From NCBI GenBank assembly GCA_019058425.1, contig JAHPYZ010000009.1:27387-88599 (forward strand): a stretch of DNA of 61,213 bases. The letters run 5' to 3'. Shown here one piece after another: positions 9,191-55,734 of this stretch (position 1 is its first letter; the number at the start of each line of letters is the position of its first letter). A model generated the notes under the pieces. That model made no database searches and was not told where the DNA came from. It saw only the letters and a program-made list of their open reading frames with translations. Source of the stretch: Promethearchaeota archaeon. GTDB taxonomy: Archaea; Asgardarchaeota; Lokiarchaeia; Sigyniarchaeales; SOKP01. A program made the position numbers and the translations under genes.

Positions 9191-10441
9191 TTAAAATGAA
9201 ACAATAGGTAATTTGTGAATAAATTCTTTAACCAATTCTACTCTTTCTTTTCTCTCTTGTTTATAATATCTGAGAGGATAGAGTTCATTAATTACAAATT
9301 TATAAATTTTTATCCAAGTTTTAGCTACTTTACTAATTCGATAATTTCTCGCTACCAATTTTGAATTTAATCCCATTTCTGTTCGTAAATCATTGTTTTT
9401 TAATAATTCTACTGTTCTTTCTTTGAATATATCAAGATTATTAGCGAGATATCCAGTCTTACCATGGCGGATTACATTTGAGATTCCTGTTGCGTTTGCT
9501 CCTATACAAGGAGTACCTTGCGCCATTGCTTCAATTAAGACTAATCCTTCTGCTTCAATCCAAGACCAGAGACAAGCTAAATCAGCAGTATTATATAATT
9601 TTAATAAATCACTAAAAGGTACACGCCCCAAATAAGAAACGTTATCTCTATAATTTTTCTTCTGGATCATTTTCTTCACATGTGAACTAGATGGTCCATC
9701 ACTTCCAACAAGAACTAAATGTGAATCTGGTACCTCTCTGTGGATTTTTTTAAATGTTTTGATAATGCTCAATTGGTGTTTTTCTGGAGATAACCTTGAT
9801 GCGTATAGAAGAATCTTTTTATTATCCAAATTATATTTATCTCTGATTCCATTTTCTTTTACGTCTGTAAAATATAAATCTGAGATCCCATTAGTTAAAC
9901 AAACAATTGGTTCTTTAAATCTTTGCTCTCTAAGTAAATCTTTTTTCGATTGTGTAGGAACTGAGACAAGGTCATATTTATCTAAGATATGTCTTTCATA
10001 TCGCCAAACCCAATCCATTCTTGATAAAAGTTTTCCAAGAACTGGTATATACTGTGCAGTGTAAAAAGATAGTGGAGAATTATGAGTTCCAGTCATTGGA
10101 ATACCTAAATATTTTGCCCAATTAATCGCCATTGAACCAAATGAGGCATGTGTATGAATATGTGCGATGTCAAGATAATCATGAGTGCAGAAAAAGTATC
10201 TGTGGATAGGGAAACTGAGTACAAAGCCAGTTTTGGGAGATATTTTTGCCCCATAGAAATTATGGAGATGGAGATTTTTAGGTTTGGTCTTAGGTTTCTC
10301 AATTCCCGGTGCGAAAACATGAACATTGTGTCCAGTGTATTTTGCTATGGCTTCAGCGAGATTTCTGCAAGCAATTGCAGTTCCATTGACCTGTGAATAC
10401 ATAGAAGTGAAAAATCCGATATCAAGTTTTTGCTTAGCCAA
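9191..10441 (-). CDS. GT4-family glycosyltransferase
   Basis: A 416-residue GT-B fold glycosyltransferase. The N-terminal domain has the glycine-containing acceptor loop near residues 14-22 and HIHTHASFGSMA. The C-terminal donor domain has LLYASRLSPEKHQ, and the retaining-GT4 motif appears around EAEGLVLIEAMAQGTP. Related archaeal enzymes transfer hexoses to lipids or glycans. Substrate and acceptor cannot be read from the sequence. No membrane helix is visible, so it is probably cytoplasmic or peripherally bound. Confidence 0.9.
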   Translation of the reverse strand: MAKQKLDIGFFTSMYSQVNGTAIACRNLAEAIAKYTGHNVHVFAPGIEKPKTKPKNLHLHNFYGAKISPKTGFVLSFPIHRYFFCTHDYLDIAHIHTHASFGSMAINWAKYLGIPMTGTHNSPLSFYTAQYIPVLGKLLSRMDWVWRYERHILDKYDLVSVPTQSKKDLLREQRFKEPIVCLTNGISDLYFTDVKENGIRDKYNLDNKKILLYASRLSPEKHQLSIIKTFKKIHREVPDSHLVLVGSDGPSSSHVKKMIQKKNYRDNVSYLGRVPFSDLLKLYNTADLACLWSWIEAEGLVLIEAMAQGTPCIGANATGISNVIRHGKTGYLANNLDIFKERTVELLKNNDLRTEMGLNSKLVARNYRISKVAKTWIKIYKFVINELYPLRYYKQERKERVELVKEFIHKLPIVSF

Positions 10442-42757: not shown

Positions 42758-44047
42758 TTATTTAGTTTTAAAAAATCTTCTAGATTCAGCATCACCAAGT
42801 ATATAATGGCTTCCACCACCGTGTACCATACAGTACGCATCAAGAAGTCCAAATTGATTGCAATATTGCTCTGTAAATGCTCTTCCACCCATGGTTCTAA
42901 ATAAATCTATGGAACTTTGAAATGCCAATTCACATGTTTGAATTTTTAACCCCATTACTTGATTGGCCATGATTTTAGAATCTGCGATTTCTGAACGATT
43001 ATCGATCTCGCGAGCATAATTCATTAAAGCTGAAAGGTATAAATTGATTCCTCGAATATTATTAGCAATTGGAAACCTAATAATTTGATATTGATATAAT
43101 TTGTGTTTAAACTGTTCGCGTTGAAGAGCAAAAGCATGAGAATAAAATAATTTTTTAATACTGTCCCCTATTGCTTCAGCACTTATAACCAAACGTTCTT
43201 CAGTTAATTGATGAAACATTATATCTAATCCATCACCATCGAGAAGATTATCTCTAGGAAGTTCGACATCATCAAAAACCAAACGACTAACAAATGCATC
43301 ATACATACCATAAGTTCTTACTCTAGAAGATTCAAAATTCTTCAATTGTTGATGTTCAGTATCTACGATTATTCCGCCTAGTCTTCCATTATTTAATCTT
43401 CCATAAAGAATAAGGTTCTCAGCTAACATACCATTGGTTATAAATAATTTTTTCCCATTCGCGATAACTTTATCTCCTTTCTCATCTAATTTTAACTCAA
43501 TTCTAACAATGTCGCTTCCTGCGTTAAACTCGGTCATGCCAGACGCTGCCATCAAACCATTTTTTATCACAGGAATGAGATACTTTTCCCGTTGATAATC
43601 ATTAGCTTTATAATTTACAGGATTACAATAAAGTGTACCCCCCGCTAAACGTCCCATTTCAATACTCCAATTTCCACTGACATATCTATCACTTTTAGGT
43701 GACCAAAAGCCACCACATAAGGATAAAGCTATAAGGGCATTTCTAGTAACATTTCCAACATCATGATCATCAAAATCAATAACCGTACTATAGTAACCCT
43801 TTTCAGCTAATTTTTTCATAAAATTAACGACGATTTCACTTTTTCTTTCTTGAATTGGTTCTTCTGCCTTATAGTTTAACTCTTCCAAGTTTTTTAATTC
43901 TTCCTCAAGATATTCTTCCATATATTCATAAAATTCAGCTAGGAAATTTTTTTCTTTTACATTAAATATTGGGTTATTCAATATATCCAATTCTGGAATG
44001 TATCTACTAATTTCTAGTTTCGGAAATTCTGGGAGTCTTGTATCCAT
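42758..44047 (-). CDS. Acyl-CoA dehydrogenase with IVD/LCAD-type catalytic glutamate
   Basis: A 429-residue acyl-CoA dehydrogenase. FAD/substrate-binding segments are MTEFNAGSD (171-179), REQFKHKL (310-317) and MGGRAF (386-391). The catalytic base of medium-chain enzymes (in YEGT near the C-terminus) is Gly here (HGGGS, 409-413). Instead Glu284 in TEERLVI stands where isovaleryl-CoA and long-chain dehydrogenases carry their base. This points to long or branched substrates. It desaturates acyl-CoA to 2-enoyl-CoA. It is divergent from the thiolase-fold gene. Confidence 0.9.
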   Translation of the reverse strand: MDTRLPEFPKLEISRYIPELDILNNPIFNVKEKNFLAEFYEYMEEYLEEELKNLEELNYKAEEPIQERKSEIVVNFMKKLAEKGYYSTVIDFDDHDVGNVTRNALIALSLCGGFWSPKSDRYVSGNWSIEMGRLAGGTLYCNPVNYKANDYQREKYLIPVIKNGLMAASGMTEFNAGSDIVRIELKLDEKGDKVIANGKKLFITNGMLAENLILYGRLNNGRLGGIIVDTEHQQLKNFESSRVRTYGMYDAFVSRLVFDDVELPRDNLLDGDGLDIMFHQLTEERLVISAEAIGDSIKKLFYSHAFALQREQFKHKLYQYQIIRFPIANNIRGINLYLSALMNYAREIDNRSEIADSKIMANQVMGLKIQTCELAFQSSIDLFRTMGGRAFTEQYCNQFGLLDAYCMVHGGGSHYILGDAESRRFFKTK

Positions 44048-44239: not shown

Positions 44240-45661
44240 ATGATTAAATTTAGTGATAAACAATTAAAAATACCGAAACTAATGCGACCGGTCTATTTAG
44301 CCACAGTTGGAATGTCAAAATTTGACAGAGCCTTTCCAGAAACGCGAACTGAAGAATTATGCATAAATGCATTAACAGCAGCTGCGCATTTTGTAAATAT
44401 GACTCCTTCTGAACTCAAAAAATATATTCACACTTGCTATTATGGCCATTTTGCTGACCATTTTGGAGATCAATTACTTGGAGAAGCAGTTATTCATGAT
44501 AGACTTGGATTAGATCCATTAGGAAATATTGGTGTAAAAACTGGTGGTGCTACAGGTGGTTCTGCTATGTGGGAGGCTGTAAAGGCTGTAGCTTCAGGGT
44601 ATAGCGATTGTGCTCTAGCACTAGGATGGGAGAGAATGGATGAAGTCCCGACTGATGAAGGCAACCATCTTATTTCAGCCGCAGCAGATAAGGATTGGGA
44701 AACTCCCTTAGGACATATATACACAGGTTATTATGCTGTTATGGCTCAAAGATATTGGAAAATTTTTGGTAAGGAAGAAGATTCGTTTAGAAATACCATG
44801 GCAGAAGTAGCTGTTAAAAATCGAGGTTATGCGAGAATGAACCCTCATGCTCAAGGCCCAATGAAAATAACTGTTGAAGATGTAATTAAATCTCCTATTG
44901 TTGCGTATCCCCTCCGTGCTTTAGATTGTTGCTTAATGAGTGTTGGATCTGCATGTGGAATAGTCTGCGATGAAAAAACTGCCTATGAAATAACAGATAA
45001 ACCACTTAGGATTTATATTGCTGCTGGAAGTCATACGTTGCGGGTTGCTGATAGAAGAGATATGAAAATACCTCTCTTACCAAATGAAACATCCGGACAA
45101 TATGATGACTTAGGGAAAAAGTTTCCAGGTGGAGATCGTTATCCAGGCTTTACAAGCTTCTTAGCAGCTAGAATGTCAGCATATTATGCATACCATATGT
45201 CTGGAGTTGTAGATCCAACAGAAGATCTTGATGTAGTAGAACTTCATGATGCATTTACAATCAGTGATATTCAAACATATGAAGACATTGGTATTAGACC
45301 CTATGGAGAAGGAAGAGATTATATAGAAACTGGTGATGCTTACGTAATTAACCCTCAAACTAAAAAACCAGGGAATCTACCAAGTAATCCTAGTGGTGGT
45401 TTAATAGGATGTATGCATGCTGTAGGGGCAACAGGCCTAATGCAAATTGCTGAGATTGGATACCATATTTGGAATCGATGGAATGAAATTCATGAACCTG
45501 AGGAGAAGTGGAAAGCATTCGGAAGAGAAAAACCAAACGATTGGACAAGCCTACAAGTTAAAGGAGCAAAAAGAGGTTTAGCAATTTCTCATGCTGGAGT
45601 AGGTTCTCATGTAACATGTACTATTTTAATGGATCCAAATAATTTAATAAAGGAGGATTAA
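44240..45661 (+). CDS. Thiolase-superfamily protein lacking the catalytic cysteine (SCP-x/Ltp2-like)
   Basis: A 473-residue thiolase fold. The nucleophile loop, normally VEAACASGG, reads VKTGGATGG (99-107), so the active Cys is Gly103. The SCP-x-type ELHDAF is at 335-339 and the His of GHP survives as His393 in CMHAVGATG. The late Cys position reads SHAGVG. Normal thiolysis or Claisen chemistry through a Cys thioester is therefore unlikely. The closest known parallel is Ltp2, a thiolase-fold retro-aldolase that works bound to a DUF35 domain. A DUF35 gene follows four bases after the stop, supporting a similar complex. Confidence 0.88.
   Translation: MIKFSDKQLKIPKLMRPVYLATVGMSKFDRAFPETRTEELCINALTAAAHFVNMTPSELKKYIHTCYYGHFADHFGDQLLGEAVIHDRLGLDPLGNIGVKTGGATGGSAMWEAVKAVASGYSDCALALGWERMDEVPTDEGNHLISAAADKDWETPLGHIYTGYYAVMAQRYWKIFGKEEDSFRNTMAEVAVKNRGYARMNPHAQGPMKITVEDVIKSPIVAYPLRALDCCLMSVGSACGIVCDEKTAYEITDKPLRIYIAAGSHTLRVADRRDMKIPLLPNETSGQYDDLGKKFPGGDRYPGFTSFLAARMSAYYAYHMSGVVDPTEDLDVVELHDAFTISDIQTYEDIGIRPYGEGRDYIETGDAYVINPQTKKPGNLPSNPSGGLIGCMHAVGATGLMQIAEIGYHIWNRWNEIHEPEEKWKAFGREKPNDWTSLQVKGAKRGLAISHAGVGSHVTCTILMDPNNLIKED
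45650..45656 (+). promoter_or_regulatory. Strong ribosome-binding site for the DUF35 gene
   Basis: AAGGAGG ends nine bases before the ATG at 45666 and overlaps the last codons of the thiolase-fold gene. It fixes the start and implies translation coupling of the pair. Confidence 0.8.
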
Positions 45662-45665
45662 AAAG

Positions 45666-46268
45666 ATGCCAAAAACAGAAGAAGAAAAAGGTTTTGTAGA
45701 CATTATTAATGGAAGATATAAACCTAAAGGGGTTTTTCATATAATTGAAGCAAATCAACCTATTTATAATAAAGATACTGGCAAATTAGCAGGTGTTACA
45801 AATCCTAGAGATATGACATATATTCACTCATATGGAGGAGAAGGTATATTTTTCGAATCTTTAGGCAAGGGAAAACTAATGGCTTCAAGATGCGACAACG
45901 AAAAATGTGAAACAAAAGGTTCAATTTATGAACCATTTCGAATCTTTTGCCCAGATTGCCTAAGAAAGAACACAGTTGTAGATATTACTGAAAAAGCTCA
46001 GAAAACTGCTAAAATCCACTCATTTATTATTACTCATCGTTCCGGAGCTTTTAATATACTACCAAAACCTATTAAATTTATAAATGTTGAATTCGATGAA
46101 GAAGTCGTTACGATTCTTATGAGCGTTTTAGTTGTAGGAGAACCAGAAATTGGAAAGAAGGTTGTACCTATCTTTCGAACCAAGAATCCAACATATACAA
46201 TTATGGATTTAATGTTTGTAGTTGAAGGTACATCCGAATCAGAATTACCAGAAGGTTTTACATTCTAA
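45666..46268 (+). CDS. DUF35 OB-fold acyl-CoA-associated zinc protein
   Basis: A 200-residue DUF35 protein. The zinc ribbon has Cys76, Cys81, Cys95 and Cys98 and is followed by the OB-fold (TAKIHSFIITHRSGAFNILPKPIKF and GKKVVPIFR). The N-terminal 70 residues are longer than in minimal DUF35 proteins. DUF35 proteins bind thiolase-fold enzymes and shape the acyl-CoA channel, as in the archaeal thiolase/HMG-CoA synthase complex and the Ltp2-ChsH2 aldolase. The four-base spacing and strong ribosome-binding site show it is made with the thiolase-fold protein. Confidence 0.9.
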   Translation: MPKTEEEKGFVDIINGRYKPKGVFHIIEANQPIYNKDTGKLAGVTNPRDMTYIHSYGGEGIFFESLGKGKLMASRCDNEKCETKGSIYEPFRIFCPDCLRKNTVVDITEKAQKTAKIHSFIITHRSGAFNILPKPIKFINVEFDEEVVTILMSVLVVGEPEIGKKVVPIFRTKNPTYTIMDLMFVVEGTSESELPEGFTF

Positions 46269-46367: not shown

Positions 46368-47270
46368 TCATTGTTGATACAAATTAAAGATCTTTCTTGC
46401 CTCAGCGGGAGTAGCAAGTTCACGATTTACAATTCGAGCAACTTTTGCTGCCCAATCTACCTGTTCCCAACTACCTTTAGCTAATTCCCCATCAGGCATA
46501 CGAATATTATCTTCTAATCCAACCCTAATATGACCATCCATAGCTGCAGCACACATTGCTGCTTGAAATTGATTTTTTGCTACACCACAAACACTCCAAC
46601 TGGCATCTGGAGGTTTAAGGTTTATAAGATGAGCCAAATTTTCATAGGAAAATGGTATTCCTCCTAAAACCCCAAATACAAATTGAAAATGTAGTGGAGG
46701 ATCAAGAATTCTTTTAGGTTGCTGTTTAGCTAAGTGTAATATATTATACATTCCACCAATATCATAAACTTCGATTTCTGGCTTTGTTTCTGCTTTTTTC
46801 ATCTCTTTTGCAAATTTTTGAATGGTATCGAATGTATTTTCAAAAATATTTTTCGCTCCAAGCCCAACTTGTCCAGTTTTATGATCTCCTACTGCAAAAT
46901 TCATTGAATTAGTATTTAATGAAGCAATAGGAGGTTTAAACGTTTTAACAGGCGTAATCCTCTGTTTGGGTGTTACAATTGAACTAATTGCAGTACTGAG
47001 ATTAATCAAGATATCTGGAGCTTTTTCCTTAATGTTATCAATTATAGCACCGATAACTTCAAGTTCATGAGTTGGGTTACCTTTTTCTGGATCTCTCGCA
47101 TGTATATGAACAATTGCTGCACCAGCTTCATAACATTTCTTCGCTTCATCCCCAAATTCTTCTGCTGTAAATGGGACATTTGGATTCTGAGCCCTATTAG
47201 TTACTGCCCCCGTGAGAGCTGCACTTATAACTAATTTTTTTGATAAATCTTCTTCTGACATTTTTATCAC
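46368..47270 (-). CDS. BKACE-family beta-keto acid cleavage enzyme
   Basis: A 300-residue TIM-barrel protein of the BKACE (formerly DUF849) family. The metal-binding motif VHIHARD is at 54-60, with NLSTAISS and LNTNSMNF typical of the family. Members condense a beta-keto acid with acetyl-CoA and cleave it to acetoacetate and a CoA ester, as in lysine fermentation (3-keto-5-aminohexanoate cleavage). Substrate differs between members and cannot be fixed here. GTG 47270 or ATG 47261 could be the start. Divergent from an acyl-CoA synthetase. Confidence 0.9.
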   Translation of the reverse strand: MIKMSEEDLSKKLVISAALTGAVTNRAQNPNVPFTAEEFGDEAKKCYEAGAAIVHIHARDPEKGNPTHELEVIGAIIDNIKEKAPDILINLSTAISSIVTPKQRITPVKTFKPPIASLNTNSMNFAVGDHKTGQVGLGAKNIFENTFDTIQKFAKEMKKAETKPEIEVYDIGGMYNILHLAKQQPKRILDPPLHFQFVFGVLGGIPFSYENLAHLINLKPPDASWSVCGVAKNQFQAAMCAAAMDGHIRVGLEDNIRMPDGELAKGSWEQVDWAAKVARIVNRELATPAEARKIFNLYQQ

Positions 47271-47490: not shown

Positions 47491-49041
47491 ATGAATATTA
47501 GAGAACTAGTCGAAAGTCAAGCAAAAAAATATGGAGATAAAGTCTTCTTATATTGGAAAGATATTACTGTTTCTTATACTCAATTGAATGAGCTAACAAA
47601 TCGAGTAGCTAATTTTTTATATGATTTAGGTATTAGAAAAGGCGATAAAGTCAGTGTTTATTTACCAAATATGCCAGAGTACGTATACTTATATTTAGGG
47701 ATACCTAAAATTGGTGCAATAACAGGCCCAGTAAATGCTTTATTTAAACCTAGAGAAGTCAAATTTGTAGTTGGACATTCAGAAGCTAAAGTTATTGTAA
47801 CAATTCCACAGTTTATGGAAGTTATTAACCAAATTAAGGGGGAACTACCTGATCTACAACACATAATTATTATCGGAAAAAAAATTGAAGGTACATTAAG
47901 TTATGAAGAATTAATAGAAAAAGCGTCACCCGATGCACCTCCTGAGGTGGATATCGATGAAAAAGAAGACCCTGCTGCCATATTATATACATCAGGAACC
48001 ACTGGTTTTCCAAAAGGTGTTTTACAGACACATTTTAACATTAGAAGAAATGCTGAAATGATAAGAGATTTCACAGATGGCCAAGAATATTTTCGATATA
48101 TGTTAATTTTACCCTTATTTCATGTCAATGCTCAAATAGTTACTATTATGGCACCACTTGTTATAGGAGCGAGCTCGATTCTAACACCTGGATTTTCAGC
48201 TACTACACATTGGGAAACGGTGGCGAAATACAAGGCATCCACTTTTAGTTGTGTTCCAACAGTACTATCGGTCTTACTTAGAATGCCCCATGAAAATTTA
48301 GATCTTTCTTCATTAGAATATGTCGTCTGTGGAGCTGCTCCTTTACCAGTGGAAGTATTTAAGGAATTTGAAAAAACGTTTAATTGTAAAGTTGTAGAAG
48401 GATATGGCCTTACAGAAGGTACCTGTGCTTCTTCAGTTAATCCCTTGCCTACTGAAACTGAAGATAGACGAAAGGTGGGAAGTATCGGTATACCTCTACC
48501 TGGAAATGAGATGAAAATTGTTGATGAAAATGGTAAGGATCTAGCTCCCAATACAAAAGGAGAAATTGTTGTTAAAGGAGATAATATTATGAAAGAGTAT
48601 TACAAGAATCCAGAAGCTAACGCAGAAACTCTTAAGGATGGCTGGTTGTATACAGGAGATATTGGTTATATGGATGAGGATGGGTTTTTCTATATCACTG
48701 ATCGCAAAAAAGATATGATTATTCGTGGTGGAGAGAATATTTATCCACGTGAAATTGAGGAAGTTCTATATTCTCATCCAGCAGTTTCTTTAGGTACAGT
48801 TATAGGTGTACGAGATAAAATTTATGGGGAACTTCCCAAAGCATTTGTAGTTTTAAAGGAAGGAGAAACTCTTACCGAACAAGAACTTATTGATTATTGT
48901 AAACAATATCTAGCTGATTTTAAAGTCCCAAAATATGTGGAATTTAGAGAAGATCTACCTAAAACCCCTACTGGAAAAATAATGAAACAACCACTTCGTG
49001 AAGAGGAAGAAGCTAAAACGGGTAAAATCTTTAACTCTTAA
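47491..49041 (+). CDS. Acyl-CoA synthetase (AMP-forming)
   Basis: A 516-residue AMP-forming ligase of the long/medium-chain type. The ATP-binding motif YTSGTTGFPKG is at 166-176; YGLTEGT, YTGDIGYMD and the hinge DRKKDMIIRGGENIYP follow, and the catalytic Lys is in PTGKIMKQPLR. It converts a free fatty or other carboxylic acid, ATP and CoA to acyl-CoA. Next to FadH-like and crotonase-fold genes, fatty acid activation is likely. Confidence 0.93.
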   Translation: MNIRELVESQAKKYGDKVFLYWKDITVSYTQLNELTNRVANFLYDLGIRKGDKVSVYLPNMPEYVYLYLGIPKIGAITGPVNALFKPREVKFVVGHSEAKVIVTIPQFMEVINQIKGELPDLQHIIIIGKKIEGTLSYEELIEKASPDAPPEVDIDEKEDPAAILYTSGTTGFPKGVLQTHFNIRRNAEMIRDFTDGQEYFRYMLILPLFHVNAQIVTIMAPLVIGASSILTPGFSATTHWETVAKYKASTFSCVPTVLSVLLRMPHENLDLSSLEYVVCGAAPLPVEVFKEFEKTFNCKVVEGYGLTEGTCASSVNPLPTETEDRRKVGSIGIPLPGNEMKIVDENGKDLAPNTKGEIVVKGDNIMKEYYKNPEANAETLKDGWLYTGDIGYMDEDGFFYITDRKKDMIIRGGENIYPREIEEVLYSHPAVSLGTVIGVRDKIYGELPKAFVVLKEGETLTEQELIDYCKQYLADFKVPKYVEFREDLPKTPTGKIMKQPLREEEEAKTGKIFNS

Positions 49042-49072: not shown

Positions 49073-51085
49073 TTATATATTATTTGCTAATTTATACGCT
49101 CTATGAATAGCTTCTAAGACAGTTTCTGGTTTTCTCGCATCTCCGATAGTCTCTACCTTAATATTTCCAAGTTGTTTTATTTCCCTGAATAGACTTTTAT
49201 TTGGTTCTACTCCTGTAGCATAATATACAACATCTACATCATTGATAATCTGTTCATTATCTTTTGTATCAATAAAACTTACAAAATTTTCTCCAATTTC
49301 TTTCACTCTAACTCCAGTATGAAATTTAACACCTAACTTATCACATTTATCAAGAAGTACCCATTTTGTGGTTTTTCCCAATGCAGAACCTAATTTTGGT
49401 AATTGTTCCAATACCATTACTTTATTTCGTCTCCCATGTAACATTTCTAAGGCGATTTCAGGTTCTAAAGCTTTGTAGTTTGTTAGAAAATCAAATGCTT
49501 CAAGGCTTAAAGATCCATATTTAGCTATATATAGTGCTAGTTCAATTCCAGTAGCTCCTCCCCCAATAATCACATTATTTTCACCAATTGGAGCATCTCC
49601 GCTAAATACATCATTAGCCCAATAAACATTGTCTCTCTCTATTCCTGAAATAGGTGGCTTTGTTGGTTTTGAACCCGTTGCTATAAAAATTGCATCTGGA
49701 TTAAATCCTTTAACTGTATCAAGGGTTACTTCTTCGTCAAGATGTAGTTGGATCCCATGTTTTTGAATCCAATACTGGTAATTATCAATCATTCTTTTGA
49801 ATTCATTTCTTCCAGGAGGGATATATATTAGATTTAATAATCCTCCTATTTTGTCATCTTTCTCAAAAATATGAACTTCATGTCCCCTCATTGCAGCAAC
49901 TCTTGCAGCTTCTAAACCTCCAGGACCAGCCCCAACAACCATTACTTTCTTTTTTTCTTTAAGTGGTTTTATTTCTGTTTTAGACTCATTTCCAGCTCTA
50001 GCATTTCTTAAGCATGATATAGGAACCATTTTAAAAATAGCATCAAAACAACCTTGATTACAACCAATACAATTCATTATGTCTCGCAAATCACCTTTTT
50101 TTGCCTTTAATGGTAAATAAGGATCTGCTACTAATGCTCTACCCATGCAGATGGCATCTGCTTTTCTAGACATTAATACTTGTTCGGCTAACTCAGGATT
50201 ATTAATTCTATTTGAAGCAAAAACCGGAATGGATACACGATTCCTAACATTTTCGGCTAGATAGGTGTAGCATCCTTCTGGAACATCCATAGTAGTTTGA
50301 GGAGTTTTTGTTTCATGCCAACCCCCGGTAACATTGATATAATCTAAGTGTTTACCTAGATATTCAGCTATTATAGCTTTTTCTTTATAAGTATTACTTT
50401 CTGGAACAAAGTCATCACCTGATATACGGTATCCTATGGGAAAATCACCTAACCTTGATCTCATCAATTCAAAAGTTTCAATAGCAAATCTTAAACGATT
50501 TTCTAGGCTCCCACCGTATTCATCAGTCCGTTTATTTGTTTTTGGAGATGAAAATTGACTAAACAAATAACCTGCGTTAGCACATAATTCTACCGCGTCA
50601 AATCCGGCTTTTTTTGCTCGGATGGCAGCGTCAGCAAAAGCTTTTTGTTCTGTTTCAATATCTTCAATAGTCATTTCTCTTGGGGTGGTTTTGCTGAAAT
50701 TACTATAAACAGCAGAAGGAGCGATGGGTGCTTTTCCAATTATTTGTGGGAATGTATAAGCTCCACTATGGTATAATTGACAAACTACTTTTACATCTTC
50801 TCTAGCTTTATGTATAGCTTCAGCAAACTCTGTTAATTTTGGGACATATTCATCATTTTCAATTGATATCATCATTGGAACCCCTTTTGCATAGAGATCT
50901 ATGTAACATCCGCCAACAATTAACATTCCAGCTCCACCTTTTGCTCTTTCAACATAAAAATCAGTTAGTCTTTGAGTGACAAAACCATTATTCGCAAGAT
51001 TAAGATTCAGAGCAGGCATGACGATTCGGTTTGAAACCGTCATATTCCTAATTTTAAAGGGTGTGAATAATTTAAAGAACTTCAA
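49073..51085 (-). CDS. fadH: 2,4-dienoyl-CoA reductase, FadH type
   Basis: A 670-residue protein, matching E. coli FadH (about 672). An N-terminal old-yellow-enzyme barrel with Tyr173 and His257 corresponds to FadH's catalytic Tyr166 and His252. The 4Fe-4S motif is Cys339, Cys342, Cys346, Cys358, same spacing as FadH. Then an FAD/NAD(P)H domain starts at VMVVGAGPGG. It reduces 2,4-dienoyl-CoA during unsaturated fatty acid oxidation. Other family members act on trimethylamine or bile acids, but residue agreement favours FadH. Divergent from a dienoyl-CoA-isomerase-like gene. Confidence 0.9.
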   Translation of the reverse strand: MKFFKLFTPFKIRNMTVSNRIVMPALNLNLANNGFVTQRLTDFYVERAKGGAGMLIVGGCYIDLYAKGVPMMISIENDEYVPKLTEFAEAIHKAREDVKVVCQLYHSGAYTFPQIIGKAPIAPSAVYSNFSKTTPREMTIEDIETEQKAFADAAIRAKKAGFDAVELCANAGYLFSQFSSPKTNKRTDEYGGSLENRLRFAIETFELMRSRLGDFPIGYRISGDDFVPESNTYKEKAIIAEYLGKHLDYINVTGGWHETKTPQTTMDVPEGCYTYLAENVRNRVSIPVFASNRINNPELAEQVLMSRKADAICMGRALVADPYLPLKAKKGDLRDIMNCIGCNQGCFDAIFKMVPISCLRNARAGNESKTEIKPLKEKKKVMVVGAGPGGLEAARVAAMRGHEVHIFEKDDKIGGLLNLIYIPPGRNEFKRMIDNYQYWIQKHGIQLHLDEEVTLDTVKGFNPDAIFIATGSKPTKPPISGIERDNVYWANDVFSGDAPIGENNVIIGGGATGIELALYIAKYGSLSLEAFDFLTNYKALEPEIALEMLHGRRNKVMVLEQLPKLGSALGKTTKWVLLDKCDKLGVKFHTGVRVKEIGENFVSFIDTKDNEQIINDVDVVYYATGVEPNKSLFREIKQLGNIKVETIGDARKPETVLEAIHRAYKLANNI

Positions 51086-51319: not shown

Positions 51320-52144
51320 ATGGATGAAAATGCCGTATTAATAGAGGAAAACGAGGATAAGACAATAACAACCATTAGAATGAATCGTATAGGTAAAAAA
51401 AACGCTATGAATTATGACTTAATGGTTGGGCTTCAAAACGCAATAGATAAAGTTGAAAGAACTAATGCTAGAGTAGTTATTATTACTGGAGGAGATGAAT
51501 TTTTCAGCTCAGGTATTGATTTAAACTTTTTAACTGGTCAAGAAAAAGATCCTGAAGGAGTTATTCCTGATTTACGAATTCCTAGAAATTTTAGATATTT
51601 TGCAAATACTTGGATTCATCCTATTTTTATAAAGATTGAAAAGATGGAAAAACCAGTCATAGCTGCTATAAATGGTTATTGTTATGGAATGGCATTCGAG
51701 TTAGCTTTAGCATGTGATTTTCGATTTTGTACAGAATCAGCTGAGTTTCATATGTTAGAATCAAAAATTGGTATGAACCCAGACGTGGGTGGTACTTGCC
51801 GTTTAACTCGTTTGGTTGGTATTCCAAATACCAAGGATATCGTTTTAACTGGACGTAAATTTGATGGAAATGAAGCTTATAGACTTGGAGTTGTAAATCG
51901 GGTTGTAAAAAATAAAGAAGAATTAAATTCGATTATTAAGATGTATACTGATGAACTTATGACCAGTGGTCCTTTAGCAGTAGGACTTGCCAAGAAGTTA
52001 ATAGATGATTGTTATGGCAAAGATACTGCTTTTGGTTTAGAGCTTGAAACATTAGTAAGCTCTCAATTACTACAAACTAAAGATGCTGTGAATGCTGCTT
52101 TAGCACGTTTAACAAAACAAAAGCCAAAATGGCGATGGAAATAA
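51320..52144 (+). CDS. Crotonase-fold enzyme, dienoyl-CoA isomerase-like
   Basis: A 274-residue crotonase-fold protein. The oxyanion loop SSGIDL and the NGYCYGMAFELA helix are present, with Glu127 at the first catalytic position. The second site has Glu147 and Asp155, eight residues apart (ESKIGMNPD). Plain enoyl-CoA hydratase has Gly at the second of these; the Glu/Asp pair at this spacing matches delta3,5-delta2,4-dienoyl-CoA isomerase, and Asp also appears in PaaG-like isomerases. Next to the FadH-like reductase this suggests work on polyunsaturated acyl-CoA. Hydratase activity is possible too. Confidence 0.88.
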   Translation: MDENAVLIEENEDKTITTIRMNRIGKKNAMNYDLMVGLQNAIDKVERTNARVVIITGGDEFFSSGIDLNFLTGQEKDPEGVIPDLRIPRNFRYFANTWIHPIFIKIEKMEKPVIAAINGYCYGMAFELALACDFRFCTESAEFHMLESKIGMNPDVGGTCRLTRLVGIPNTKDIVLTGRKFDGNEAYRLGVVNRVVKNKEELNSIIKMYTDELMTSGPLAVGLAKKLIDDCYGKDTAFGLELETLVSSQLLQTKDAVNAALARLTKQKPKWRWK

Positions 52145-52162
52145 TTATTAATTATTTATTTT

Positions 52163-54010
52163 TTATAGGTCTTTTAAACCCAACTTTTTTAATTTCTCTT
52201 GATTCAGTTTTCCAGTTTCAATATCCCAATCCCTATACTTATAATATTCAGTTTTTAATTGATAAAAGTTAGGGGATTTACCAGCACATTCTGTTCCATC
52301 CAATGGGTTAAGTAAAATTTTTGGCAATCGATCATCTTTTGGAGTAATCCCCATTTTTAAATTAAATAATCTTTTCATTACAGATATCCTTTCACCATAG
52401 ATTCTAAGCTTTTCAGTATCACAATCCAAACCTATAGCTGATTGTATTAATTCAGCAATTAACGAGGGTAAAGGATTTGCGAAAACACACATAATTAGTG
52501 AACTATAAAGTGCTCGATAATCTTGCGCTCTTGCACTCATTATTGCCATTTCTAAATCGTCTCTATATTTGTCTATAGTTTCTATTCCGAATTCCTCAAG
52601 AGGAGTTCCTAATAAAATAGTATTCATATCACATGTGTTATGACAAGGACCTCTAGGTGCCGCTATTGCATATGCTATTGCCATACCAAAATTAGCTCTT
52701 AGATCGTGATACGGAACCTCCATTCCATAAACTGTTGCTATCTCATCTTGATTAATATTGAATTTTTTCCCTATAGTATCAGATCCTTCTGCGAATAAAT
52801 CTCCAATCCCTTCCCTTAATGATATTTTTTCAATCATCTTTAAAGCAGGTTTGATATCTCCCCATTTAGGACTTATCCCATCAATATCTTCAGAGCTTAT
52901 TTTACCGTTGTCATATAAATAATATATAAAAGCAATAATACTACTACAACTGATTGTGTCAATTCCGTAATCATTACATAATAAGTTAGCTTTTACTATT
53001 GATTCAATATTATCATTTAAGATCATTGAACCAAAACCAGCGAGAGTTTCATATTCTGGAGCGGAAACTTCTCCATCGGTCTTATATTCTCCAACTTTAA
53101 CAATTGCTTTCTTTGCACACCCAATAGGGCATGAAAAGCATGGATACTTCCGCGTAACAGTTTTCTCTAGAGCCGTCATTCCAGAAATATTATAAGCACC
53201 TTCCCATTCCTCCCCTAAAGTCCAATATTTTTTAGGTATCTCTCCAGTTGAGTTCCATAAATCTATACCTGCAGATGTGCCAATATCACCGTACATTTTA
53301 GTAGTAAAAGCTTGATTTACATCCTCAAAAGCTTTTTGAACTGATTGCTTGAACTCATTTGGGTCTGCTGCTTCAAACATCCCTTTTTTACCTCGAACTG
53401 TTATAGCTTTTAATTTTTTCGATCCCATAACACCGCCCATTCCTGTTCTCCCAGCAGTCTTTTCTTCAGAAGCTATTATTGCATATTTAACTAAATTTTC
53501 ACCCGCTTGACCTATACAAGCTATCCTTGTTAAATTTGATCCTGATTGTTCTTTTAAAACTCTAGAAGTTTCTAATGTCCCTTTCCCCCATAAAAATGTA
53601 GCATCCTTAATTTTTGTATCATTTTCTGCAATTTCAAGATATACAGGACTCTCTGAAGCGCCTTTAATGATTATTCCATCATATCCGGCTTTTTTAAGCT
53701 CTGGACCAAAAAATCCTCCACAGTTCGATTCACCCCAGATTCCTGTGTAAGGGGATTTTGCACATACAACAAACCTACCACTAGTTGGAATAGTAGATCC
53801 ACAAAATGGCCCCGTCATAAACATTAAAATATTATCTGGAGATAACGGATCTGTATCCCTATCAATATAGTCATAAAGATACCTACAACAATATCCTGCG
53901 CCCCCTAGAAAGTTTCCTGCAAATTCCTTATTAAGAAATTCTTCAATAATTTCTTGGTTAGACAAATCAACAATTAATAATTTACCTACGAATCCCTTTA
54001 GTTCCCCCAT
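52163..54010 (-). CDS. Tungsten aldehyde:ferredoxin oxidoreductase family
   Basis: A 615-residue AOR-family enzyme (P. furiosus AOR about 605). Pterin-binding AGRTGMGGVMG is at 186-196; the 4Fe-4S ligands are Cys291, Cys294 and Cys298, with a distal Cys in IGLDCDTEKL. It oxidises aldehydes to acids with ferredoxin, or the reverse when electrons are plentiful. It lies 35 bases downstream of an iron alcohol dehydrogenase, giving an alcohol-aldehyde-acid pair. Substrate range is unknown. Confidence 0.93.
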   Translation of the reverse strand: MGELKGFVGKLLIVDLSNQEIIEEFLNKEFAGNFLGGAGYCCRYLYDYIDRDTDPLSPDNILMFMTGPFCGSTIPTSGRFVVCAKSPYTGIWGESNCGGFFGPELKKAGYDGIIIKGASESPVYLEIAENDTKIKDATFLWGKGTLETSRVLKEQSGSNLTRIACIGQAGENLVKYAIIASEEKTAGRTGMGGVMGSKKLKAITVRGKKGMFEAADPNEFKQSVQKAFEDVNQAFTTKMYGDIGTSAGIDLWNSTGEIPKKYWTLGEEWEGAYNISGMTALEKTVTRKYPCFSCPIGCAKKAIVKVGEYKTDGEVSAPEYETLAGFGSMILNDNIESIVKANLLCNDYGIDTISCSSIIAFIYYLYDNGKISSEDIDGISPKWGDIKPALKMIEKISLREGIGDLFAEGSDTIGKKFNINQDEIATVYGMEVPYHDLRANFGMAIAYAIAAPRGPCHNTCDMNTILLGTPLEEFGIETIDKYRDDLEMAIMSARAQDYRALYSSLIMCVFANPLPSLIAELIQSAIGLDCDTEKLRIYGERISVMKRLFNLKMGITPKDDRLPKILLNPLDGTECAGKSPNFYQLKTEYYKYRDWDIETGKLNQEKLKKLGLKDL

Positions 54011-54019
54011 AATATAAAA

Positions 54020-54025
54020 CTCCTT
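54020..54025 (-). promoter_or_regulatory. Ribosome-binding site of the AOR gene
   Basis: AAGGAG on the minus strand lies nine bases before the ATG at 54010, in the short gap after the alcohol dehydrogenase gene, and supports that start. Confidence 0.7.
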
Positions 54026-54045
54026 CTTAAGCTATTAAATAAGCC

Positions 54046-55245
54046 TTAAAAATCAATGTCTTTTCCTTCAAAAGCATAGTAATATATTTTTCTGTAATAT
54101 TCTTCTGTAATCGATCTAGGAGTCATCACACTTGTAGCATCTTGAAAGCAACACGCAATTAACATTTCTATATTGTGTTCAAGATCTGTTCTTGAAACTC
54201 CCAAATCTTGTAACTTAGTGGGAAAGTCAACTTCTTTTTGCAGTTCTTTGATTTTATCAACAGCTTTTAACGCAGCTGTTTTTTTATCATTATCCCACTT
54301 AGCCCAGCCCAATTGCTTGGCAATTTTTGCATATATTTCTGATGCGTCATCTTCTTTATCAGGATTGTTTAAACAAAATTGTGAGATATATGGTAGCAAC
54401 GTTCCAACTACTCTTCCATGGGGTGTATGGAAGATCGCCCCCCAACTATGCCCCATTCCATGGCCAATATGAACTTGAGAATTACTAAAAGCTAAACCTG
54501 CCATTGTTGCTGCTTGATGTAGATAATCCCTAGCTTCCATATCCTGTCCATTTTTATAGGCAATTGGTAAATATTTAAAGATAAGCTCTATAGCTTTTAA
54601 ACCCATGCCATTAGAGAATTCATTTTTCCAATTAGAAACCATACCTTCGAATGCATGTGATAACGCATCAAAGGCTGTATCAACTGTTAATTTTGGTGGC
54701 ATATCTTTTGGAAAAATAGGATCAACTATAGCATAAGTTGGAGTTATTCCCCTATGCGCATAAATAAATTTTTTCCATACATCATCTTCTAACTTAGAAA
54801 TTATAGTCCCATTTGATGCTTCTGAACCAGTTCCTGAAGTAGTTGGAATTGCAATAAATTTAGCTTTTTTTCCTGTTTCATACAAATCAGATCTGAATAG
54901 ATGAATATCACCGATATTCAGTTCTGGAAATTCATATAACACCCAGGCGGTTTTAGCAGTATCAATAACAGATCCTCCACCTAAAGCAATGATTAAATCG
55001 GGAGAATACTCTATACATTGTTCTCTTGCTTTTAAAACCCCTTCTTCTCTAGGATCTGGAATCACTTCATTAAAAACTCGAAATTTTTTACCAAATTTTT
55101 CTAATTTATCTGTTAAAATTTTGAGATAACCTAGCTCATCGAGATTTCTATCAGTAACAATATAACATTTGTTTCCCTGAATATTTTTGATAAAATCTAA
55201 GCTTTCTTCTCCATAAATTATGTTTGGACAATAGAAATACCACAT
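54046..55245 (-). CDS. Iron-containing alcohol dehydrogenase
   Basis: A 399-residue group III alcohol dehydrogenase. NAD-binding GGGSVIDTAK and TTSGTGSEAS are present; metal ligands lie in AFDALSHAFE and the HIGHGMGHSWGAIFHTPHG segment. Close relatives interconvert primary alcohols or diols and aldehydes. Pairing with AOR suggests alcohol oxidation to acid, or disposal of reductant by acid reduction to alcohol. It lies in a run of minus-strand genes extending from the SCP2 gene. Confidence 0.92.
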   Translation of the reverse strand: MWYFYCPNIIYGEESLDFIKNIQGNKCYIVTDRNLDELGYLKILTDKLEKFGKKFRVFNEVIPDPREEGVLKAREQCIEYSPDLIIALGGGSVIDTAKTAWVLYEFPELNIGDIHLFRSDLYETGKKAKFIAIPTTSGTGSEASNGTIISKLEDDVWKKFIYAHRGITPTYAIVDPIFPKDMPPKLTVDTAFDALSHAFEGMVSNWKNEFSNGMGLKAIELIFKYLPIAYKNGQDMEARDYLHQAATMAGLAFSNSQVHIGHGMGHSWGAIFHTPHGRVVGTLLPYISQFCLNNPDKEDDASEIYAKIAKQLGWAKWDNDKKTAALKAVDKIKELQKEVDFPTKLQDLGVSRTDLEHNIEMLIACCFQDATSVMTPRSITEEYYRKIYYYAFEGKDIDF

Positions 55246-55329
55246 TGTTTTTCCTCTAATAAAATGTTATGAATATGTTGAATTTCTTTTTTAAATAATC
55301 ATTTTAATAAAAAATAAAATTTGAAAATT

Positions 55330-55734
55330 TTATAAGTATTCAGTTTCGAACCTTCCAAGACTGTTTACAATTTCTAGCGCAGCTTTAGTATGCCGCATCA
55401 ATTTTGCCATATCTCCTTCAAGTCTTAATTTACCTGCCATTATTGCTCTTATTGGATCGATTTCTTTTTTCATAACGGATACAAAATTATCATATGGTCC
55501 AGCCATAACATATTCCGTCTGTATTTCTTCACCTTCTGGAACTAATCTAGTTCCAGTACATTCTCCATGATGTAATCCTACAAGTATTCTAACTTCATGA
55601 TCTAAATTACCACTAGGTTCAATAACAAGAAGCATATCTCCTTCCCAAGTTAGTGCAGATGGTTTATAGTCCGGATTTTCATTAATTGCACTACCAAATG
55701 CTTCTACCCATTCTTCTGTTAATATTTTTAACAT
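55330..55734 (-). CDS. SCP2-domain lipid carrier protein
   Basis: A 134-residue single SCP2-type domain. The pattern around NENPDYKPSALTWEGDMLLVIEP and IRAIMAGKLRLEGDMAKLMR (the family's conserved G-x-x-x-x-x-G-D region) supports it. SCP2 domains bind fatty acyl-CoA, sterols or other lipids in a hydrophobic tunnel. Here it is surrounded by genes for acyl-CoA and alcohol metabolism, so it probably presents a water-insoluble substrate to them. Confidence 0.85.
   Translation of the reverse strand: MLKILTEEWVEAFGSAINENPDYKPSALTWEGDMLLVIEPSGNLDHEVRILVGLHHGECTGTRLVPEGEEIQTEYVMAGPYDNFVSVMKKEIDPIRAIMAGKLRLEGDMAKLMRHTKAALEIVNSLGRFETEYL

Follow-up and report, generated by a model that had tools for sequence, protein, structure and literature searches.

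A 61,213-nucleotide stretch of a Promethearchaeota archaeon genome of the class Lokiarchaeia (assembly GCA_019058425.1, contig JAHPYZ010000009.1, positions 27,387 to 88,599, forward strand; hereafter the window, numbered from its first letter) carries a gene pair for a thiolase-fold protein without the nucleophilic cysteine (Cys) and a DUF35 protein. We propose, with a probability of roughly 0.55, that the two form an aldolase complex, a 3-hydroxyacyl-coenzyme A (CoA) lyase. Cleavage of a 3-hydroxyacyl-CoA, as opposed to a ketoacyl-CoA, is argued from the clade in which the thiolase-like protein falls and from the company its gene keeps. The pair and its candidate active-site residues are given below; residue counts for the related subfamilies A to D cover 50 distinct genes (49 distinct sequences; truncated L144 omitted), compared with ten reference proteins, of which eight bear the normal nucleophile Cys.

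44240..45661, + strand: Cys-less thiolase-fold protein (subfamily A), 473 residues, from Pfam, NCBIfam and predicted fold
44459..44461, + strand: His74 codon, subfamily signature, in the loop before helix 80-88 (50/50 A-D genes, 0/10 reference proteins; low model confidence)
44546..44548, + strand: Gly103 codon, at the thiolase nucleophile (Cys) position (79/79 orthologues, 50/50 A-D genes)
44720..44722, + strand: Tyr161 codon, in the column of Sal Gln161 (50/50 A-D genes, 0/10 reference proteins)
45245..45256, + strand: HDAF motif, His336-Phe339 (79/79 orthologues; His336 in 49/50 A-D genes, Tyr in L126)
45416..45418, + strand: His393 codon, thiolase GH motif (50/50 A-D genes)
45587..45592, + strand: Ser450-His451 codons, where CxG thiolases have the late catalytic Cys (50/50 A-D genes)
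45650..45656, + strand: AAGGAGG, likely ribosome-binding site of the DUF35 gene, within the 3' end of the thiolase-like gene
45666..46268, + strand: DUF35 partner (zinc ribbon plus oligonucleotide/oligosaccharide-binding (OB) fold), 200 residues, zinc Cys 76, 81, 95 and 98, from fold and conserved Cys

A preliminary description of this locus, made from the letters alone, had read a Cys-less thiolase coupled to a DUF35 gene, and these readings hold: the open reading frame is real, Gly103 lies within KTGGATGGS, the late Cys position is SHAGVG (residues 450-455), HDAF (336-339) and His393 are retained, and AAGGAGG and a 4-base gap precede the DUF35 open reading frame. A Pfam scan returned Thiolase_N and Thiolase_C_1. 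The top NCBIfam model, NF004982/PRK06365 ('thiolase domain-containing protein'), scored 676.8 bits, below its cut-off of 695; this closest family match names no reaction. In the predicted structure (predicted local distance difference test score, pLDDT, 85.7; predicted template-modelling score, pTM, 0.90), residues 14-467 compare as a thiolase fold, with pLDDT below 50 in loops 73-79, 135-160 and 268-271. The best fold match is PDB 4yzo (ST0096, Sulfolobus), a thiolase-like protein whose nucleophile region, NTSGSGG, is apparently also without Cys.

In thiolases, Cys and His residues share the catalysis, and the equivalents of His336 and His393 hold the enolate. Alignments place Gly103 in the nucleophile column of the window protein, and in place of the second catalytic Cys (CxG or HDCF) there are Ser450/His451 and Ala338. 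In contrast, the nucleophile Cys is retained in PDB 6esq (archaeal acetoacetyl-CoA thiolase in a complex with 3-hydroxy-3-methylglutaryl-CoA (HMG-CoA) synthase; the Cys-bearing protein that scores best by sequence), in 7yvy (P. furiosus thiolase) and in BbsB (benzoylsuccinyl-CoA thiolase subunit, 7pxp); Gly is found at this column in Ltp2, Sal and 4u4e. The late-Cys column holds Asn or Thr followed by a hydrophobic residue in all seven reference proteins that have a residue there, and Asn-x-Gly-Gly of 7yvy corresponds to Ser-His-Ala-Gly in the window protein. Thirteen positions are invariant in subfamilies A-D (F71, H74, G102, G103, T105, G141, Y161, R268, R311, Q345, H393, S450 and H451), and each of these residues except H393 occurs in at most two of the ten references. 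The subfamily C member L126 has YDS at 336-338 and departs from the signature at 336, 338 and 342. Judged from these alignments, the family has lost the nucleophile, like the aldolases, yet has retained the two thiolase His and gained His74, Tyr161 and His451.

One scan of genome contigs, from which the best 80 of 322 relatives were retained, gave orthologous open reading frames for 78 of the 80 (a few truncated at contig ends; without L080 and L116), or 79 with the window. Gly103, HDAF and His393 are present in all 79 of these subfamily A proteins, so that a lone odd gene or a sequencing error is excluded. Identity to the window protein is 83-96% within Lokiarchaeia and 76-81% outside, including Thermoplasmatota; in this comparison the DUF35 partner shows lower identities (59-67%). 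The pair had been presented as archaeal, which does not stand: close orthologues of the thiolase-like protein occur in seven bacterial phyla, namely Fidelibacterota (Marinimicrobia), Myxococcota, Spirochaetota, Thermodesulfobacteriota, Planctomycetota, Krumholzibacteriota and Latescibacterota (a few orthologue records carry no phylum). The distribution of subfamily A is patchy, with a match above 650 bits in 25 of 58 searched genomes (the window's own included) and a 509-bit piece of the gene at a contig end in G001. At that frequency the gene as such is common among the anaerobic archaea for which the preliminary description had supposed an unexpected route.

Searches for the family in 292 and 247 genomes of two additional phyla yielded subfamilies B, C and D, at about 55%, 41% and 35% identity; D was found also in the 58-genome search. 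Subfamily C, which we take to be the Thermoplasma type, includes matches far above the PRK06365 cut-off, and four bacterial subfamily A members score 702-774 bits on NF004982, a model presumably derived from Thermoplasma proteins. The residue signature recurs in those NF004982 members above cut-off that entered the alignments, from subfamily C and bacterial A, with L126 deviating. The family is a widespread, very conserved and new group of subfamilies within the Cys-less, DUF35-associated part of the thiolase superfamily; a search of the open PMC literature, which leaves most subscription papers outside, found no paper on it. Another Cys-less subfamily, E, with GGATGG at the nucleophile, was seen in the window's own genome (L002, contig C125, ~9203-10441) and close to subfamily A genes elsewhere (L069:1801-3033, L073:1661-2890).

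The DUF35 assignment of the preliminary description is borne out by fold and by the four zinc Cys. The 200-residue protein gives neither a Pfam nor an NCBIfam match at E 0.001; its predicted fold is that of DUF35, and it matches the DUF35 chain of 6esq weakly (E 0.0002). An orthologue at L078 likewise reaches 20.0 bits against a Pfam gathering score of 27.1. A DUF35 gene was recognised at 67 of the 79 loci, immediately downstream of the thiolase-like gene in 66, and Cys 76, 81, 95 and 98 are kept in 67/67. Elsewhere, DUF35 domains hold complexes together (PMC12329534, PMC11321319). The product of the Mycolicibacterium gene atf1, which shares an operon with the solitary DUF35 gene chsH4 and is annotated as an acetyl-CoA acetyltransferase, is an aldolase (PMC10398937), a precedent for such an annotation hiding an aldolase.

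The nearest characterized aldolases are Ltp2 (Thermomonospora curvata Ltp2-ChsH2 DUF35, PDB 6ok1) and Sal (Comamonas testosteroni Sal-Shy DUF35, PDB 9myr), with which the window protein shares the loss of the nucleophile Cys and a DUF35 partner gene; in this wide sense it resembles the Cys-less DUF35-associated aldolases. Catalytic residues are Tyr294 and Tyr344 in Ltp2 and Tyr302 and Cys304 in Sal, where Gln161 is involved in the oxyanion hole (PMC12329534). In our alignment His336 corresponds to Ltp2 Tyr294 and Sal Tyr302, Ala338 to Ltp2 His296 and Sal Cys304, His393 to Ltp2 Tyr344 and Sal Gln352, and Tyr161 to Sal Gln161. The YDHF motif of Ltp2 with its Tyr294 is therefore replaced by HDAF in every orthologue, the second catalytic Tyr by His393 in every A-D gene, and the YDCY motif of Sal is not found in the window protein. 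Identity to Ltp2 (6ok1) is 24% over the fold alignment, on a separate branch, and the window partner is a free-standing DUF35 protein whereas that of Ltp2 is fused to a MaoC domain. The Ltp2-like character suggested earlier is thus upheld for the Cys-less fold and its DUF35 partner and fails for the two catalytic Tyr; an archaeal Ltp2 proper is ruled out by catalytic residues and tree position.

In a tree without outgroup (52 rows), A-D form one clade (support 99/98), and a separate branch (100/100) unites Ltp2, Sal, 4u4e and a Mycolicibacterium relative, with the thiolase-like family outside it. By itself this unrooted tree says nothing on a single Cys loss, and rooting changed the reading: with two classical thiolases as outgroup (47 rows), Ltp2/Sal, paired Cys-less proteins and A-E fall into one Cys-less clade (99/95), which persists at 95/92 after removal of columns 97-110, the nucleophile region. 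The Ltp2/Sal branch again has 100/100 in this last tree. The earlier placement with Ltp2 is supported, on the rooted tree, at the level of this shared clade and not within the Ltp2/Sal branch. Two more Cys-less rows (ala_loki_L005, pl_L185) lie outside the clade, which means that the superfamily has lost Cys on more than one occasion. One Cys loss before the aldolases and the A-E family diverged is supported by the rooted topology, short of proof because long branches are present. Adjacent pairs of Cys-less thiolase-like genes are common beside a beta-keto acid cleavage enzyme (BKACE) gene in Lokiarchaeia; at L042:9442-12712 two such genes are followed by two DUF35 genes, and far relatives on a Rhodococcus plasmid (L183:2817-5511) are followed by one OB-fold gene, with acyl-CoA dehydrogenase, hydratase and ligase genes adjoining.

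The gene neighbourhood in the window comprises the following genes.

42758..44047, - strand: divergent acyl-CoA dehydrogenase, with Glu at the isovaleryl-CoA-dehydrogenase-type base position and none at the usual one
46368..47270, - strand: BKACE (family scans)
47491..49041, + strand: AMP-forming acyl-CoA ligase (family scans)
49073..51085, - strand: FadH/old-yellow-enzyme-type flavoprotein (family scans)
51320..52144, + strand: enoyl-CoA hydratase family protein

Acyl-CoA dehydrogenases carry their Glu base at either the usual or the isovaleryl-type position, and the BKACE family releases acetoacetate. To describe the neighbourhood across the family, we counted genes within 4 kb of the 79 thiolase-like genes, using BLAST with selected queries; contig ends truncate many of these loci. 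The neighbours are acyl-CoA dehydrogenases (39/39 Lokiarchaeia loci and 20/40 others), sometimes hydratases (crotonase or MaoC, 11/79) and almost never 3-hydroxyacyl-CoA dehydrogenases (1/79); a classical thiolase is present in 2/79. BKACE accompanies 27 of 39 Lokiarchaeia loci, and an acetoacetate-CoA ligase family gene 8 of 40 others, that of L119 being a weak relative and one of the two matches in L083 being an acetate-CoA ligase. At L066, L076 and L077 the thiolase-like, DUF35, dehydrogenase and MaoC genes are consecutive. An isovaleryl-type dehydrogenase occurs in L095, L098 and L100 (PDB comparison for L095), and L098/L194 has in addition a crotonase gene and four genes of the carboxyltransferase family, one identified by a scan and three by BLAST. 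Since the neighbouring dehydrogenases are of several kinds, split by eye, with 34-46% identity between kinds, the association with acyl-CoA dehydrogenase probably arose more than once.

Among 20 wider stretches, less five with no open-reading-frame match (L167, L171, L172, L177, L178), an acyl-CoA dehydrogenase adjoins the subfamily B gene in 3/3 (L168-L170) and the subfamily D gene in one of two (L180, with acyl-CoA ligase and, by eye, electron-transfer flavoprotein genes; not L179). None of the four subfamily C stretches (L173-L176) has one beside the gene; a small DUF35-like gene adjoins it in L173-L175 (Pfam check for L174).

Other genes around the family were also seen. A few kb downstream of the pair, window positions 52163-55734 encode an aldehyde:ferredoxin oxidoreductase, an Fe-type alcohol dehydrogenase and an SCP-2 sterol-transfer domain protein, genes that an aldehyde-releasing aldolase would suit. 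A helix-turn-helix (HTH)-cupin regulator gene (cluster 8) lies upstream of subfamily A in 14 bacterial loci (e.g. L117:109-651, L095:1649-2191), and a similar one, by eye, upstream of the subfamily B gene in L170. A glycyl-radical enzyme (pyruvate formate-lyase-like) gene adjoins the pair in three Lokiarchaeia loci (L069:8259-10655, L071:2748-5144, L073:8362-10758), and a methylmalonyl-CoA-mutase-type large subunit lies near a subfamily B gene (L168:11277-12950).

The gene content of the carrier genomes bears on the possible product. HMG-CoA lyase, which hypothetically shares its reaction (HMG-CoA to acetoacetate and acetyl-CoA) with the window protein, is not among the family or structure matches of that protein. 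Its model, NF004283, scores above cut-off in 1/25 carriers outside Lokiarchaeia (G073; the match in G384 is below cut-off). In Lokiarchaeia it does so in 0/17 carriers and 0/9 non-carriers, so its absence does not discriminate there. Acetoacetate-CoA ligase (TIGR01217) is found in 21/25 carriers outside Lokiarchaeia, and in 14/17 carriers and 5/9 non-carriers within; the TIGR01217 gene of the subfamily A carrier G411 holds a stop. A close isovaleryl-CoA dehydrogenase occurs in 4/51 genomes, with three carriers outside Lokiarchaeia at 81-83%. Isovaleryl-CoA as a general substrate was dropped on this count, three of the four genomes having no acetoacetate-CoA ligase. The gamma subunit of acetone carboxylase (PF08882) is present in 11/17 Lokiarchaeia carriers (10/16 without the window's own genome) and 2/25 others; within the window's own family the comparison of 15/23 carriers with 4/14 non-carriers (p 0.045; G001 and G026 counted as carriers on partial genes) is too weak as support. 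The window's own genome has an acetone-carboxylase-like three-gene run (L198:6450-11345, contig C118; gamma by PF08882, two large subunits by eye).

How might such a protein act? An acyl-CoA dehydrogenase and a hydratase would produce a 3-hydroxyacyl-CoA. A base, His393 or Tyr161, would then remove the proton from the 3-hydroxyl, breaking the C2-C3 bond. The acetyl-CoA enolate would be held by His336 and His393 as in thiolases and protonated by a His, and a ketone or aldehyde would be released with acetyl-CoA, with no covalent intermediate, while DUF35 would cap and steady the active-site loops. We infer this assignment of base and acid among the conserved His and Tyr. The most likely substrates are short, 3-branched 3-hydroxyacyl-CoAs of isovaleryl/leucine-type catabolism: HMG-CoA, which would give acetoacetate, or 3-hydroxyisovaleryl-CoA, which would give acetone. 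Acetoacetate or acetone as product is read from gene company alone and may be wrong; the branched 3-hydroxyacyl-CoA named in the preliminary description likewise has the neighbouring genes as its only basis and could not be upheld as a finding.

Several observations weigh against an aldolase of this kind. The catalytic Tyr of both known aldolases is absent from the aligned sequences, except for Tyr336 in the subfamily C member L126, so the mechanism must differ from that of Ltp2 and Sal. The rooted Cys-less clade relies on a two-sequence outgroup with long branches, and approximately unbiased tests on the set without outgroup leave a grouping of Ltp2/Sal with A-D (p 0.117) or with A-E (p 0.105) neither supported nor rejected. 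No reported activity was found for any member of subfamilies A-E. In half of the loci outside Lokiarchaeia (20/40, some of them truncated at contig ends) an acyl-CoA dehydrogenase is missing within 4 kb, none was recognised by eye around the gene in the carrier G384, a complete chromosome, and of seven neighbour dehydrogenases compared from bacteria, six belong to the ordinary type and not to the isovaleryl one. The carboxyltransferases needed for HMG-CoA formation are near the thiolase-like gene in one locus (L098/L194). TIGR01217 is present in 90/247 genomes of the phylum of G064 (4/4 A carriers, 9/11 B carriers, 77/232 others; Fisher 5.6e-5), with A and B grouped after the data were seen and in carriers with large genomes, so that the association may follow genome size. 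Finally, G060, G069 and G071, which have the isovaleryl-type dehydrogenase, are among the four carriers outside Lokiarchaeia without acetoacetate-CoA ligase: isovaleryl-type and ligase-type carriers hardly overlap, and these two hints do not belong to one pathway.

Other functions account for parts of the same evidence. The protein could run the reaction forward, as an aldol-type synthase joining acetyl-CoA to a ketone, aldehyde or 2-oxoacid for biosynthesis or ketone assimilation. Aldol reactions are reversible, 6esq acts in a synthetic complex with HMG-CoA synthase, and the own genome holds the acetone-carboxylase-like operon; DUF35 and acetyltransferase genes, which may or may not be relatives of the window pair, also occur in acetone-induced clusters of sulfate reducers (PMC8084838). 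This is nevertheless unlikely, as the neighbours (acyl-CoA dehydrogenase, acyl-CoA ligase, BKACE) look catabolic, and no HMG-CoA-synthase-like gene was noticed beside the pair, although no search was aimed at one. There is an equally small chance of a decarboxylase or a Claisen-type acyltransferase working without a covalent acyl-enzyme, comparable to Cys-less ketosynthases. Retention of His336 and His393, which hold the enolate in thiolases, would fit such chemistry; no malonyl- or methylmalonyl-CoA gene is prominent among the frequent subfamily A neighbour clusters. TbSLP decarboxylates malonyl-CoA as a side activity, very slowly, but is itself proposed as an aldolase, and Sal is without this activity (PMC12329534).

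Loss of the nucleophile would also suit a scaffold without catalysis of its own, binding CoA esters and keeping hold of the dehydrogenase or hydratase encoded nearby; a complex-holding role is known for DUF35 domains (PMC12329534, PMC11321319). We consider this quite improbable: 76-81% identity to bacterial and Thermoplasmatota orthologues, with invariant His74, Tyr161, His393 and His451, points to chemistry, and it is the DUF35 partner that is less conserved. A true thiolase with a different nucleophile is highly improbable. Cys231, invariant in 50/50 A-D genes, is the one candidate that speaks for it, but its column is Ser (four) or Cys (six) in the ten references, eight of which have the usual nucleophile, so Cys231 is no stand-in. 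With Gly103 at the nucleophile position, and a 3-hydroxyacyl-CoA dehydrogenase neighbour in just 1/79 loci, this function was rejected.

An aldolase complex of the thiolase-like protein and DUF35 is thus our preferred explanation. It is possible, though doubtful, that subfamily A proteins are C-C lyases of thiolase fold that cleave branched 3-hydroxyacyl-CoAs in primary metabolism, either as an HMG-CoA lyase of new fold or as a 3-hydroxyisovaleryl-CoA lyase forming acetone, in Asgard archaea and in many bacteria mostly without the classical HMG-CoA lyase; in that case the steroid aldolases would represent a single branch of an ancient, general class of Cys-less aldolases. The best-fitting family model says 'thiolase domain-containing', and the relatives often carry the annotation acetyl-CoA acetyltransferase; without the Cys, thiolase activity is improbable. 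Should these proteins be aldolases, pathway reconstructions that count such genes as thiolases contain a wrong step, and thiolase-fold aldolases are not a steroid speciality; they would form a large class comprising five or more subfamilies of archaeal and bacterial proteins. The module of dehydrogenase, hydratase, DUF35 and aldolase would then offer a general route for cleaving 3-hydroxyacyl-CoAs whose oxidation to ketoacyl-CoAs is impossible.

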